Below, piece after piece: positions 6,622-53,106 of a stretch of DNA of 64,000 bases. How positions within the stretch are numbered: position 1 is the first letter of the stretch; each line of letters starts with the position of its first letter. The stretch is taken from NCBI GenBank assembly GCA_020186115.1, contig WSYJ01000178.1, positions 496,001 through 560,000 of the forward strand. Reading direction: 5' to 3'. Both the position numbers and the translations under genes were made by a program. Below the pieces are notes generated by a model. That model worked only from the letters and a program-made list of their open reading frames with translations, ran no database searches and was not told where the DNA came from. This DNA comes from Histomonas meleagridis. Lineage: Eukaryota; Parabasalia; Tritrichomonadida; Dientamoebidae.

Positions 6622-7020
6622 TTAATTTAAAGAATGAATTAAATCAATTGTTGAATTAAATATTTCTTGTAATGTAATTAGAATTTGCGATGCGAATTTA
6701 TTTAAGTTTGGTAAATTTTTTAATTCTTTTTGAAATGATTTAAACTCTTTCTTTTTAAATATTACATTTTCATTAAATAAATCAAATTTTATTCCGATTT
6801 TTTACAATGTTTATGAAAGAAATAAAAATAATTTATGTTTAATTGGATATCTTATTTTGTTAAATTCAATAAAATTGTTTTTATCGATTTAATCGAAAAT
6901 TCGGGTTTTTCATGTATTAAAATTGATAATATATATAAATAGAATTTTAAATATTGTTTATTAGGATATTTTATATATAAATTAATTGCTGATTCGATAA
7001 GTTCTGAATCATTTAATTTC
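6622..7020 (-). pseudogene. Decayed C-terminal gene fragment, unidentified
   Basis: Reading the minus strand gives two coding-like stretches in different frames: a segment around SELIESAINLYIKYPNKQ, then after a break a C-terminus ending TLQEIFNSTIDLIHSLN with a TAA stop at 6622-6624. Composition is like the helical repeat proteins of this genome. No start codon and no family can be assigned. It probably represents the tail of a lost gene. Confidence 0.4.
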
Positions 7021-30467: not shown

Positions 30468-31213
30468 TTAGTCTGAACAGGATGCTCCAGTAGAATGATC
30501 GTAAAATTGAACTAATTCATGATGTCCTTTTTGTATTGCTTTTTCAAGTAAATCACTAAATATTTTGATTGATCATAAAACATTATTTGGAAACTAAAAT
30601 TCATTAAACTAAACAGAAATATTACGAACATTAAGAATTCCTTCTTTTTCAAGAAGAAATTTAATTATTTTTGAATGACCTTTTTGAGTTGCTCTCATGA
30701 GTGCCGTAAAAATTATTTTAAACAAATTCCAAACATTATTTTGAAATAGAAAATAATTAAAATAAATATTATATGAAACAATTAAATTTCCTTAATATTA
30801 ATATCAATTCCTTCTTGTTCAAGAAGCAATTTAACAATTTCTCGAAAACCATTTGCAGATGCATGTATAAGTGCTGTTTCAAATATTTTTAATAATTTCC
30901 AAATATTATATTAAAATATTAAATTATTAAAATAAACATCATGTGAAACAAATAAATATTTTTAGCATTAATACCAATACCATTTTGTTCAAGAAGTAAT
31001 TTAACTATTTCTGTATGACCATTTTGAGATGCCAATATAAGTGCTGTATTAAATAATTTAAATAATTTCCAAATATTATTTTGAAATATTAAATTATTAA
31101 AATAAATAATAAACAAAACAAATAAATATCCTTAGCATTAATATCAATACCTTCTTGTTCAAGCAAATATTTAAAGAATTTATAATTTGTTAAACGCGCA
31201 GAATATGCCAAAA
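30468..31213 (-). repeat. Ankyrin-module array with 170-bp period (locus 1)
   Basis: Downstream of the DUF3447 gene on the minus strand, ankyrin modules of the type TALIxASxNGHxEIVKLLL are centred at anchor positions 31213 (still in the gene), 31043, 30873 and 30703, exactly 170 bases apart, and a last one at about 30550 (153 bases). Each module is internally open. AT-rich spacers (conserved NIWKLFKLF-like reading before each module) put the next module in another frame. The last module ends with a natural-looking C-terminus (HELVQFYDHSTGASCSD, stop 30468-30470). See the matching array at 51-53 kb. Confidence 0.85.
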
Positions 31214-32341
31214 TATTTTTTGGAATTTGTTTTCCAAAGAGAAATTGAAAAACAAGAAATATGTTTCGAACACTTGCACATACATCAATAATAGATTCAT
31301 TGATTTCCATTCCTTCATGTAATATGAAAGAAAGTAGTTCATAATTACTAAACTTAATACATTTAATACCTACTTCGGTTAAATTCTCAATTACGATGAA
31401 TTTATTTTCATAAAGATATTTAAAGATATCATTACGATGAAATTGGATTGCTACTTCGTATGCATCTTCAAATGATACATGATTTTGTTCACATAAATGA
31501 ATTATTTCTTCATTTCCACCTGCAACTGCATATCTACCTGTATATTCTACATTTGCACCATTCATAAGTAAATATTTAAAACATTTTACTGCAGAAAAAA
31601 ATGCTGCATAATCAATTAATGTAACATAATAAAGTTGACCATCAATAAATGAACATCTTTCATAAAGTGATGATTCAATAAATTGATAAAAATCAAAATT
31701 TGTTTGTGATGATATTTCTTGGAGTTTTTCTATTTTATCATTTCGAATTATTTTTGCAATTTCATTAGGATTAACACCTTCTTGGATTAATTTCTTATGA
31801 AGTTCCGGATCATTTTTGAGAAGTTCATATTCATTCTCATTGTAAAAATGATAAACACAGTAATATTTTATGATTTTTTTATCTATTTCAGCTTCGTATT
31901 CCGTTTGTATCCATTTATATGATTGTTCTAATTTATAACTGTCTTTAAAACTTTTTATAGTAATTAAATTTTGTTGAACAAGTTTTTGAAGAATATAATA
32001 AGATTCTTGTGACTTTAATGAAATGAGAAACAAAAAGAATACTTTAACAAATTTTTCATTATTTGGAAAATTTGTTTTTTCTTCTTCTTTTAATTCAAGT
32101 AATTTTATAAAGTTAATATATAAATCTGTATTTTGATATTTGCTATGAAACATGAGAATAATAATTTACTTATTATAACCAAATTAAATGAATATGGAAA
32201 ATCTTCGAAAAAATCCAATATTGATTCAACTGATTTAATAATGTTATTTTCACTTAAATTGAATAATATTTTTTCTATGTTTTGTAATATGTCGAGATTG
32301 TTTTTACTTTCATCTATTTTTAGACTTAATTTCTTCTCCAT
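31089..32341 (-). pseudogene. DUF3447/ankyrin protein with a 1-bp frameshift
   Basis: The gene starts at ATG 32341 (MEKKLSLKIDESKNN), runs to about 32150, and there loses frame: SKLLFSC is followed by FHSKYQNTDLYINF only if one T is restored. From there 354 codons are open to 31089. The product has the trichomonad layout: a helical N-terminal domain, then DUF3447 (about the region SLYERCSFIDGQ to YLYENKF, with YAVAGGNEEIIHLCEQN), then one ankyrin repeat (KYLLEQEGIDINAKDIY). DUF3447 proteins are a lineage-expanded family of unknown role. It is closely related to the intact gene at 49.9 kb. The break may be real decay or a sequencing error in a T run. Confidence 0.75.
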
Positions 32342-49906: not shown

Positions 49907-51166
49907 ATGGAATCTAAAAATGTCAATCAAAAATTTCAAGATAAATGGGAAACACTTTTATCAATCAAGCACGTAATCTTTTGTATTAATAAAGAAAATA
50001 TCACTCAGTCAATAAATTTAATAATCCAAAATTTTGATGAAAATTATCCAATTTCCTTTAATATCTATATTGTTCAAATTGTATTTATTTCATTTATGCT
50101 AAATATAAATGATTATGAAATATGTTTTCTTATATTAAAAGAAATTGAAAAATTCGAAAATTCCAACAAAATCAAATTCAAAATATTTGATACATTTGCG
50201 AATTTTCTTCTTAGTAATTATAAACAAGAAGCATTTTTTCTTATTGAGAAAATGATTAAACAAAATTTAATAGATTCAAAAAGTAAAATAACTGAACCAT
50301 ATTTTATACATCGCTTAACAAATGATGAAATTAAAAAGATTAAATATGAATATTTTATGGGAGAAATTCAAGACAATTATGAACAACTTTCGAAGAACAA
50401 TTGGGAACTTCATAAGAAGTTAATTGAAGAAGGAACCAATCAGAATGAAATTGCAAAAATTATTCGAAATGATGAAATAGAAAAACTTCAAGAAATATCA
50501 TCACAAAATAATTTTGATTTTAATCAAAAAATTAAACCATCACTTTATGAAAGATGCTCATTTGTTAACAAAGATAATGTTTCATTAATTGATTATGCAG
50601 CATTTTTTTCTTCAGTTAAATGTTTTAAATATTTACTTATAAATAATGTAAATGTAAATAATACAGGCAAACATGCAGTTGCAGGTGGAAATGAAGAAAT
50701 AATTCATTTATGTGAACAAAATCATTCATCATTTAAAGGTGCATATGAAGCAGCAATTATTTTTCATCAAAATGATATCTTTAAATATATATATGAAAAG
50801 AAATTAGAAAATATTAATAATTTAGAAGAAATAGGAAAGTTTTGTGTTTTATATTATAACTTTGAAATTTTCTCATTCTTACTTAAAGAAGGAATGAAAA
50901 TTAACGATGAACTTATAAATGAAGTAGCAGAAATTGGAAATATATTTCTTATTAAACATTTTCTTAATTTTAATCCCATTCCAAAATATATTATGATTTA
51001 TGCTACAAAATCAGGAAATATTGAACTTGTAAATTACATTTTGGAGCAAAATGTAATTGATATCAATGTAAAAGATATTCATTTGTGTTGTTTAAAATTT
51101 ATTTCATTAATTTTGGGTATTAAAATAAGATTTATTAATTATTTGAATTATTTGGAACTCCACTAA
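49907..51166 (+). CDS. DUF3447/ankyrin protein, intact N-terminal part of the second array locus
   Basis: The 419-residue frame has an N-terminal helical domain, DUF3447 (GKHAVAGGNEEIIHLCEQNH, AIIFHQNDIFKYIYEKK) and ankyrin-like helices ending in one full repeat (LVNYILEQNVIDINVKDI). It then reads into the first spacer and stops three codons into the next module. It is a close relative of the frameshifted gene at 31-32 kb, and here the N-terminus is intact. Function of DUF3447 is unknown. Whether translation continues into the following modules depends on how the spacers are treated (see findings). The ATG gives MESKNVNQKFQDKW. Confidence 0.8.
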   Translation: MESKNVNQKFQDKWETLLSIKHVIFCINKENITQSINLIIQNFDENYPISFNIYIVQIVFISFMLNINDYEICFLILKEIEKFENSNKIKFKIFDTFANFLLSNYKQEAFFLIEKMIKQNLIDSKSKITEPYFIHRLTNDEIKKIKYEYFMGEIQDNYEQLSKNNWELHKKLIEEGTNQNEIAKIIRNDEIEKLQEISSQNNFDFNQKIKPSLYERCSFVNKDNVSLIDYAAFFSSVKCFKYLLINNVNVNNTGKHAVAGGNEEIIHLCEQNHSSFKGAYEAAIIFHQNDIFKYIYEKKLENINNLEEIGKFCVLYYNFEIFSFLLKEGMKINDELINEVAEIGNIFLIKHFLNFNPIPKYIMIYATKSGNIELVNYILEQNVIDINVKDIHLCCLKFISLILGIKIRFINYLNYLELH

Positions 51167-53106
51167 TAATTGCATCTAAAAATGGTTATACAGAAATAGT
51201 TAAATTACTTCTTGAACAAGAAGGAATTGATATTAATGGTAAAGATATTTATTTGTTTTATTTTATATTTATTTTAATTATTTTATATTTCAAAATAATA
51301 TTTGAAAATTATTTAAATTATTTTATACAGCACTTATTTTAGCATCAGAAAAAGGTCATATAGAAATCGTTAAATTACTTTTAGAACAAGAAGGAATTGA
51401 TATTAATGCTAAAGATATTTGTTTGTTTTATTTTATATTTATTTTAATAATTTAATATTGATTTTAATAAAATTATGTTTCAATATTAAAATTGGTATTT
51501 ATTCAAAATAATTGAAACAGCACTTATTTGTGCATCTGCGTGTGGTAAAATAGATATAGTTAAACTTCTACTGACACAAGAAAATATTGACATTAATATT
51601 GTTAGTTTTTATTTGTTTTATATAAAATTTACCCCAATAATATTATATTTTAAATCAATATTTGGAAATTATTTAAATTGTTTTATACAGCTCTTTTAAG
51701 TGCGGTTTTAAGTGGTAACGCAAAATTGGTTAAATTACTTCTTGAACAAGAAGGAATTTATATTAATGCTAAAAATATTTAAATATTATATACAATATAC
51801 TCTACAATAATTTAAAATTTCAATATTATATTTAAAAATTATTTAAATTATTTGAAACAGAACTCATTTATGCATCTAAATTTGGTTATGCAGATATAGT
51901 CGAATTACTTCTTAAACAAGAAGAAATTTTTATAAATGCTCGAGATATTTATATATATTAATTCTTGTTTATTTTAAAATTATTTTTTATCAAAATAATA
52001 TTTGGAAATTGATATAATTATTTAAAACCGCACTTATTTGTGCATCTAAATATGGACATGAAAAGGTAGTTAAATTGCTTCTTCAACAAAAAGGATCTAA
52101 TATTAATGATAAAAATATTTTTATGAGTTGCTTGATCTTTGTTTTTATAATTTAAAATTTCATGATAATGTTTGGAAATTATTTAAATTATTTTACACAG
52201 CACTTATATGTGCATCAAAAAATGGTCATACAGAAATAGTTAAATTACTTCTTGAACAAGAAGGAATTGATATTAATGCTAAAGATATTTATTTATTTTA
52301 CTTAGAATTTATTTTAATAATTTTATATTTCAAAATAATATTTGGAAATTATTTAAATTATTTTATACAGCACTTATATTTGCATCTTTAAATGGTCGTA
52401 CAGAAATAGTTAAATTACTTCTTGAACAAGAAGGAATTGATATTAATGCTAAAGATATTTATTTGTTTTATTCGAAATTAATGTTAATAATTTTATATTT
52501 CAAAATAATATTTGGAAATTATATAAATTATTTAATACAGCACTTATGTATGCATCTAAAAATGTTCATATAGAAATAGTTAAATTACTTCTTAATCAAG
52601 AAGGAATTGATATTAATGTGAGAGATATTTGATTGCTTTATTTGAAATTTATTTTGATAATATAAAATTTCAAAATAATATTCGGAGATTAATTAAATTA
52701 TTTGATACAGCACTTATTTGGGCATCTTCAAATGGTTCTACAGAAATAGTTAAATTACTTCTTGAACAAGAAGGAATTGATATTAATGCTAAAGATATTT
52801 ATTTGTTTTATTCGAAATTAATGTTAATAATTTTATATTTCAAAATAATATTTGGAAATTATATAAATTATTTAATACAGCACTTATGTATGCATCTAAA
52901 AATGTTCATATAGAAATAGTTAAATTACTTCTTAATCAAGAAGGAATTGATATTAATGTGAGAGATATTTGATTGCTTTATTTGAAATTTATTTTGATAA
53001 TATAAAATTTCAAAATAATATTTGGAAATTATTTAAATTATTTGAAACAGCACTTATTTGGGCATTATCAGAAGGTCATACAGAAATAATCGAAATGCTT
53101 ACTTGA
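51161..53106 (+). repeat. Twelve-unit ankyrin-module array with 170-bp period (locus 2)
   Basis: Modules begin at anchors 51161, 51331, 51521, 51691, 51861, 52031, 52201, 52371, 52541, 52711, 52881 and 53051. All steps are 170 bases except one of 190. Each module encodes about 31 residues (TALIxASxNGHxEIVKLLLE through INAKDI), and modules 1-11 have no stop or frameshift inside. The last is cut by TGA at 53104. Spacers of 77-79 bases carry stops in several frames but keep their length. Because 170 is not divisible by three, successive modules rotate through the three frames. Confidence 0.95.

Follow-up and report, generated by a model that had tools for sequence, protein, structure and literature searches.

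The window analyzed here is a 64,000-nt stretch of a nuclear contig of Histomonas meleagridis (contig C112, positions 496001-560000), and its plus strand carries, at 49907-53106, a long exon followed by twelve ankyrin modules that recur at steps of almost always 170 bases. With a probability of roughly 0.6, this array and its relatives encode long ankyrin-solenoid proteins whose surface diversifies, and the codons of the linkers between modules are separated from one another in these genes by inserts of ~17 nt that would have to be removed or skipped. The underlying arrangement, in which single codons alternate with inserts, is itself almost certainly real. On a wider scale, the balance tilts slightly toward a nuclear genome in which probably thousands of 17-nt elements lie between individual codons of an ankyrin repertoire that diversifies; these elements would be removed or skipped outside GT-AG and known bypass rules and would give runs of one-codon exons. 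These assignments are drawn from comparison of DNA sequences.

Spacers as a Code of Single Codons and 17-nt Inserts

Copies were sought in a genome of 43.28 Mb in 121 contigs (G+C ~28%); the passages covered of the genome publication give 43.4 Mb, 28.7% G+C, and 573 introns with at most one per gene (PMC8529796). The copy sample consists of the window and 20 fetched regions (L031-L050) picked for similarity to the window units, which places other families outside its scope, and unit statistics refer to 167 full-length units among its 238 profile matches. L051-L053, which are 300-bp pieces of further ankyrin genes, were picked from Pfam Ank_2 matches. Across the window and L031-L053, a module profile placed 222 consecutive module pairs, and the gap in each was measured from the Asp/Asn codon that ends one module to the Thr codon that starts the next.

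The gap is exactly 80 nt long in 169 of the 222 pairs, and these 80 nt read as D-17-x-17-x-17-G-17-x-T, that is, as four AT-rich 17-nt inserts with one codon after each. The four codons match the normal ankyrin linker D-x-x-G-x-T, and the period of the array is thereby accounted for as 34 codons (102 nt) plus 4 x 17 nt, or 170. In decoded form the gaps give K/N/E/D, Y/D/N/K, Gly, and N/K/D/Y/E/W, then Thr, and the most variable spacer columns are triplets spaced 20 nt apart. Stops are absent from all 169 gaps at each of the four predicted codons, against 5.6, 8.5, 1.8, and 14.1 expected from column composition (~30 in total), while column shuffles within arrays lead to expectations of 3.1, 7.6, 1.4, and 13.5 (P 0.004, <0.0005, 0.08, and <0.0005). 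The gaps are interdependent: only 136 of the 169 are distinct, L033 and L034 share 2,000 bases, and the arrays of L031 and L032 are related. An earlier note on the window had described the spacers as containing stops and unreadable in phase with both neighbors. Read plainly, they do contain stops in 92, 169, and 47 of the 169 gaps in the three frames, yet they hold four linker codons.

The third linker codon is Gly in 145 of the 169 gaps, spelled GGA 135, GGG 5, GGT 4, and GGC 1 times; because its third base varies, this slot behaves as code rather than as a fixed motif. Among 148 distinct gaps whose length is divisible by 20, GGN stands at the Gly slot in 125 and in at most 5 at any other offset. 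Pfam Ank scores the repeats with decoded linkers at 139.2 bits (cut-off 21.1), in comparison with 121.6-127.1 for four controls and 121.6 for the modules alone, and Ank, Ank_3, Ank_4, and Ank_5 all favor the decoded linkers over all four controls. By both marks of the family, an Ank score above the Pfam cut-off and the D-x-x-G-x-T linker, these are ankyrin repeats.

Many gaps of other lengths follow the same rule. They measure 12 (five gaps), 29, 31, 60 (six), 63 (12), 64, 66 (three), 77 (two), 79, 81 (eight), 82 (two), 83 (four), 100 (two), 121, 140, and 160 nt (three), and were decoded with a profile trained on the 80-nt gaps in which stop codons were forbidden. All except one of the 31 gaps of 60, 63, 66, 83, 100, 140, or 160 nt decode as 17-nt inserts plus whole codons, and the tally over the 222 gaps is 199 with every insert 17 nt long and five with no insert. 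A separate check that used no profile covered gaps of a length divisible by 20 that either are diverged or differ from 80 nt (32 gaps, 30 distinct, 131 inserts) and met one stop codon, with Gly in the penultimate slot of 20 of the 30.

Genome-wide, exact anchors found 1,071 spacer-bearing junctions and none with a reversed-pattern control, and at least 224 DNA matches to the array were counted (40 of 1,939 candidates scored); the array is thus not a product of chance. The gap is 80 nt in 87 of the 100 junctions listed, 83 nt in eight, 81 nt in two, and 66, 71, and 77 nt once each, and among these the 71-, 77-, and 81-nt gaps need an insert of different length. The DUF3447 family to which the N-terminal exons belong is represented by no fewer than 150 N-terminal loci, with 150 of 4,749 candidates scored. 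In IMG/VR, none of 63 pattern matches was related to the array; a further search of that database and one of phages gave no relatives.

Insert Number, Length Changes, and Signals

The number of inserts per linker is not fixed. Regions L045 and L050, whose modules have low similarity to the main family and whose gaps span 60-160 nt, decode to inserts that are nearly all 17 nt long, with one codon each and at most eight per linker; diverged arrays as a whole have three to eight. By eye, L051-L053 show insert-free linkers beside linkers with one 17-19-nt insert after the Gly codon. The counts met are 0, 1, 3, 4, and up to 8 per linker, which amounts to a countable record of how an intron-like element may have multiplied.

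Changes in length point to the same unit. Indels affect 25 of 167 spacers and 5 of 167 modules. Spacer deletions measure 17 nt (eight), 14 nt (four), 16 nt (three), 20 nt (one), and 1 nt (two), and insertions 1 nt (five) or 3 nt (four). A 17-nt deletion would correspond to the loss of one insert's worth of sequence with its codon kept, and a 20-nt deletion to the loss of insert and codon together. The earlier note took preserved spacer length as a sign that spacing matters and named frequent spacer indels in other strains as part of the evidence for a neutral array. Spacing does appear constrained, with the 17-nt insert, usually four per linker, as the constrained unit rather than the 170-base period; spacer indels are indeed the commoner kind, and of the 16 deletions that exceed 1 nt, 13 measure 14, 17, or 20 nt and the other three 16 nt.

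One insert was noticed by eye outside a linker. In L045, on the minus strand at ~6715-6731, a 17-nt insert lies in an ankyrin loop, and skipping it restores the ankyrin frame, which suggests that inserts can land outside linkers. A profile scan for modules split by an internal 17-nt insert gave eight candidates, none with 17 extra nt.

The 131 inserts share a loose consensus. Position 1 is A in 90, G in 35, and T in six (a purine in 125); T occupies positions 2-4 in 82, 86, and 76%; positions 10-11 are A-rich; A stands at position 14 in 75%; and T fills positions 15, 16, and 17 in 114, 110, and 116 inserts (87, 84, and 89%). Four single inserts fold at 0 kcal/mol and one 80-nt gap gave a z of -0.44, so that no foldable structure was seen in these five. 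For the splicing machinery, U2 snRNA scores above threshold at two loci (G000:C40:1173955-1174137 and C120:2033147-2033329), and U6 has a single match at C36:377228-377335 with 43.7 bits, under the cut-off of 44.

Several other readings of the spacer were tried and rejected. GT-AG introns across it lack a conserved donor or frame-compatible acceptor on inspection of the consensus, the ends of an AT-AC intron clash with the frame, and removal of the spacer by deletion across direct repeats at its ends leaves the wrong frame (the last two worked through by hand). The motif ACTAACACACAG, the Trichomonas acceptor motif, was dismissed as a splice signal since its three occurrences in the genome are close to the two of the reversed control.

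Selection on the Decoded Protein

Modules contain few stops or indels among the 167 full units. At their hypervariable codons 5 and 8, stops occur in 0 of 167 units, whereas base frequencies predict 25.9 and 35.2, and column shuffles within arrays 21.0 and 26.2. Hence the modules are probably translated now or were until recently, and stop avoidance together with the hypervariable codons indicates that the protein is made now or was made recently. This agrees with the selection at protein level that the earlier note had proposed for the modules.

Diversity is concentrated at particular codons. It reaches 0.56 at the hypervariable module codons and 0.44 at linker codons x2, x3, and x5, against 0.137 in the inserts and 0.136 in the remainder of the module (143 distinct units, after removal from 156 of those 13 that have a stop in the module, two of them internal). 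Amino-acid entropy at module codons 5 and 8 (9) and at the three linker codons rises to as much as 3.35 bits in otherwise homogeneous repeats. Along the repeat, variability peaks at positions 2, 3, 5, 10, and 13, followed by 16 and 14. Engineered ankyrin libraries randomize positions including 2, 3, 5, 13, and 14. The large overlap between the two sets suggests a recognition surface under diversifying selection. In L038, neighboring variable codons look reshuffled between units by eye, a pattern that at this level of inspection resembles diversifying selection combined with the exchange of short tracts or with targeted variation.

Mechanism and Alternative Explanations

Taken together, the linker codons are parted by inserts that are nearly always 17 nt long, and protein production would require that these be removed or skipped, with single linker codons serving as 3-nt exons. 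The likeliest route would be removal from RNA as ultra-short intron-like elements known by their fixed length and their AT-rich ends (purine-TTT ... ATTT). RNA removal is favored because the fixed length of ~17 nt resembles the introns of mikrocytids and Stentor and because the loss of a single insert looks like intron loss. Arrays may have grown as 170-bp repeats, and likewise 20-nt units of insert plus codon, were duplicated, as the copies suggest. Selection would hold the codons open, as stop avoidance shows, and would diversify those of the putative binding surface, as diversity by site shows. Unusual introns, one of the options in the earlier note, would thus be the best of those it listed.

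A number of observations weigh against this explanation. Among the 222 gaps, 14 can be decoded only with one insert of 16, 18, or 19 nt, one has an ambiguous decoding, and three (one of 29 nt and two of 77 nt) were not decoded cleanly by script, both 77-nt gaps reading well by eye once the module end is shifted by one codon. Pfam Ank_2 rates one shifted control above the decoded linkers (148.9 vs 134.1). GT..AG was not found at the ends of the 131 inserts. The literature covered offers no parallel for runs of 3-nt exons, and serial 3-nt exons between 17-nt introns would be mechanically hard for a spliceosome. Conservation is modest: modules minus the hypervariable codons are barely less diverse than spacers in 131 distinct recent units (0.062 vs a mean of 0.086 that includes the linker codons, the spacer median being 0.048), and in the 143 distinct units the module remainder nearly equals the inserts (0.136 vs 0.137). 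The dN/dS of diverged modules, a check that the earlier note had proposed, falls below 1, though not strongly, with ratios of medians of 0.62 in L045 (14 pairs, 6 modules) and 0.91 in L032 (15 pairs, 6 modules), and 0.30 for a single L050 pair. Two of 134 internal modules carry a stop, broken copies exist (frame changes in several N-terminal exons; the last modules of L039 and L050), and recent duplication accounts for part of the regularity.

Skipping could also take place on the ribosome. In a bypass of the kind known from T4 gene 60 and Magnusiomyces mitochondria, the inserts would stay in the mRNA and the ribosome would hop 17 nt after each linker codon. The inserts do lie exactly between codons, 17 is no multiple of three, and in the passages covered several Magnusiomyces cases lack perfectly matched codons (PMC5009743). 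The usual signals of recoding, which the earlier note had listed as an option, are nevertheless missing: no matched hop codons were found, as the codon before the insert varies freely (D/N, K/N/E/D, Y/D/N, G) and the insert nearly always ends in TTT, and there is no notable fold in the four inserts and the 80-nt gap examined. With four or more hops needed per repeat across many repeats, bypass is possible but unlikely. It is still less plausible that a -1 type frameshift at each spacer start lets the remainder be read in the frame of the next module as a 26-residue linker. Stops are less frequent there than in the two other frames, but 28% of gaps (47 of 169) still contain them, as do some gaps in diverged arrays by eye, and the ankyrin linker pattern appears only when codons are read between inserts; such a frameshift is hardly to be expected.

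One ordinary spliceosomal intron of ~68-80 nt per repeat would suit an AT-rich spacer in a trichomonad, a group that splices, and the U2 loci and the below-threshold U6 match are in keeping with it. In the sole GT of the spacer consensus the G reaches only 82%, and on inspection this GT lacks an in-frame AG partner; the count of ACTAACACACAG hardly departs from its control, and such an intron would leave the Gly slot, the stop avoidance at four isolated codons, and the length steps of 17 and 20 nt unexplained, which makes it very improbable. An untranslated array, either of pseudogenes or of silent donors for gene conversion as the earlier note had considered, would fit copies with frameshifts or stops and units that are recent and homogenized. 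Against it, exact anchors found no insert-free junction vs the 1,071 with a spacer (diverged recipients could escape such anchors), so that no contiguous recipient was seen, and the proposal of a cassette store finds no support; single codons flanked by inserts would also be poor donors for homologous exchange. Stops are moreover avoided at codons isolated between inserts, and the last module ends in an in-frame stop in 12 arrays vs five where it does not, as judged by eye. An array of this untranslated kind is therefore improbable.

If the inserts are excised, the splicing of 3-nt exons between 17-nt non-GT-AG introns would lie far beyond the presumed range of the spliceosome, and gene predictors built around ordinary introns would truncate the large ankyrin family (the DUF3447 loci above). 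If the ribosome passes over the inserts instead, this would be nuclear bypass at a scale unreported in the literature covered.

Comparison With Known Systems

No description of the codon-insert arrangement was found in the titles, abstract openings, and passages covered of the open-licence literature, and the earlier note, whose author likewise knew of no described system of this form, is borne out within that range. A close likeness in size is to the ultra-short introns of mikrocytids, of which the passages covered report 224 predicted in 179 genes, 16 or 17 nt long and with splicing supported by transcripts; about half of the genes are annotated, mostly for gene expression and the cell cycle (PMC10245619). 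Like the Histomonas inserts, they are numerous, conserved, and of very narrow length range, whereas the inserts number about four per linker with 3-nt exons between them and occur, where examined, almost only in ankyrin linkers. Stentor introns, as far as that source was covered, are 15-16 nt long and AU-rich, start with GU, end with AG, and have the branch A at position 10-11 (PMC9505925). They share with the inserts a tiny, fixed length and AU-richness, and the inserts are A-rich at 10-11; the inserts differ in starting with a purine plus T and ending in TTT.

Trichomonas introns of types A and B come from a parabasalid host, and the type B class is short and T-rich. In the passages covered, type B introns have 23-28 nt and consensus motifs, and the most introns reported per gene is two (PMC12316389), while the Histomonas inserts have 17 nt, lack the type B motif, and number 49 in one gene. 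The bypass elements of Magnusiomyces mitochondria, at 81 positions (PMC5009743, as far as covered), are likewise many short inserts that break reading frames and need skipping. They are mitochondrial, in contrast to 1,071 spacers on nuclear contigs of Histomonas with typically four 17-nt inserts each where measured. Nonconventional introns of euglenids, in the literature covered, also lack conserved borders and have an unknown removal mechanism, but they form a structure that joins their ends, unlike the four inserts that fold at 0 kcal/mol. Finally, DUF3447 ankyrin proteins are matched by exon 1 (DUF3447 and Ank) and by the decoded repeats (Ank); the difference is that the linker codons of Histomonas are interrupted in the DNA.

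The Two Arrays of the Window

On the plus strand, the gene model begins with exon 1 (49907-51076), a 390-codon open frame with DUF3447 and weak ankyrin repeats that was defined by its reading frame, Pfam, and relatives and ends in ...INVKD. Module-linker repeats follow, and the last module has an in-frame stop. Tandem Repeats Finder reports 51055-53088 with period 170 and 11.8 copies, and nhmmer with a profile built from the window finds 13 units on the plus strand, which at a spacing of nearly always 170 represent the 12 modules plus the terminal part of exon 1. Both confirm the twelve modules at 170-base steps, with one of 190, that had been noted before; the starts given then sit 4 nt beyond the opening base of each Thr codon, with the earliest such codon at 51157-51159. 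The modules were placed by the nhmmer profile and decoding, and each gap was decoded as four 17-nt inserts unless stated. Gap 1 (51077-51156) encodes K-W-I-G, followed by T-P-L, and leads to module 1 (51157-51246). Gap 2 (51247-51326, Y-Y-E-Y) precedes module 2 (51327-51416). The step of 190 is explained by gap 3, whose 100 nt (51417-51516) hold five inserts and the codons Y-N-Y-G-E, i.e., one additional insert-plus-codon unit, before module 3 (51517-51606). Gap 4 (51607-51686, K-Y-G-Y) and the diverged module 4 (51687-51776) come next, then gap 5 (51777-51856, N-K-K-E), module 5 (51857-51946), gap 6 (51947-52026, L-F-G-K), module 6 (52027-52116), gap 7 (52117-52196, D-K-G-Y), module 7 (52197-52286), and gap 8 (52287-52366, R-Y-G-Y).

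Module 8 (52367-52456), gap 9 (52457-52536, E-Y-G-N), module 9 (52537-52626), and gap 10 (52627-52706, E-K-G-D) are followed by module 10 (52707-52796), gap 11 (52797-52876, E-Y-G-N), module 11 (52877-52966), and gap 12 (52967-53046, E-K-G-E). Units 8+9 and 10+11 are near-identical (97%) and make 52367-53046 a recent 340-bp tandem duplication, which accounts for part of the regular spacing. With 11 gaps of four inserts and one of five, the gene has 49 inserts. Modules 1-11 are open, as the earlier note had them; module 12, a terminal half module at 53047-53106, closes with an in-frame stop (TALIWALSEGHTEIIEMLT*) by sequence reading and looks like a natural C-terminus. This duplication, the coding content of the spacers, the 390-codon exon 1, and the minus-strand array had passed unremarked in that note.

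On the minus strand, ~30.47-31.13 kb holds a second, shorter array of this type, and both arrays follow a DUF3447/ankyrin open frame that ends in ...INVKD or ...INAKD. Here exon 1 occupies 31128-32153 (open reading frame, Pfam); by eye, an ATG upstream at ~32340 does not share its frame, which may mean that this copy is damaged. Gaps 1 (31048-31127, I-N-G-N), 2 (30878-30957, D-N-G-E), and 3 (30708-30787, N-S-G-F) decode as four 17-nt inserts each; gap 4 (30555-30617) has 63 nt and decodes as three with the codons S, L, Y, S. The terminal module (30468-30554) has an in-frame stop by eye.

Array ends were judged by eye in 17 arrays. The 12 with a terminal in-frame stop are both window arrays and those of L033, L035, L036, L037, L038, L043, L044, L046, L048, and L049; of the other five, L031+, L032-, and L047 run out in spacer or foreign DNA, and L039 and the second L050 array are broken. 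Comparison of N-terminal exons by tblastn showed small frame changes and no 17-nt insert. Of the 28 relatives of exon 1 found, 12 of the 14 closest end near the same site, to which contig ends may contribute; P0015 differs, and P0008 extends one module further. Eight of these 14 align at 43-51% identity. In P0008, an ENA contig, the junction directly behind exon 1 looks free of inserts in the protein sequence (NSKNVMFESALM), and the next breaks again after Asp.

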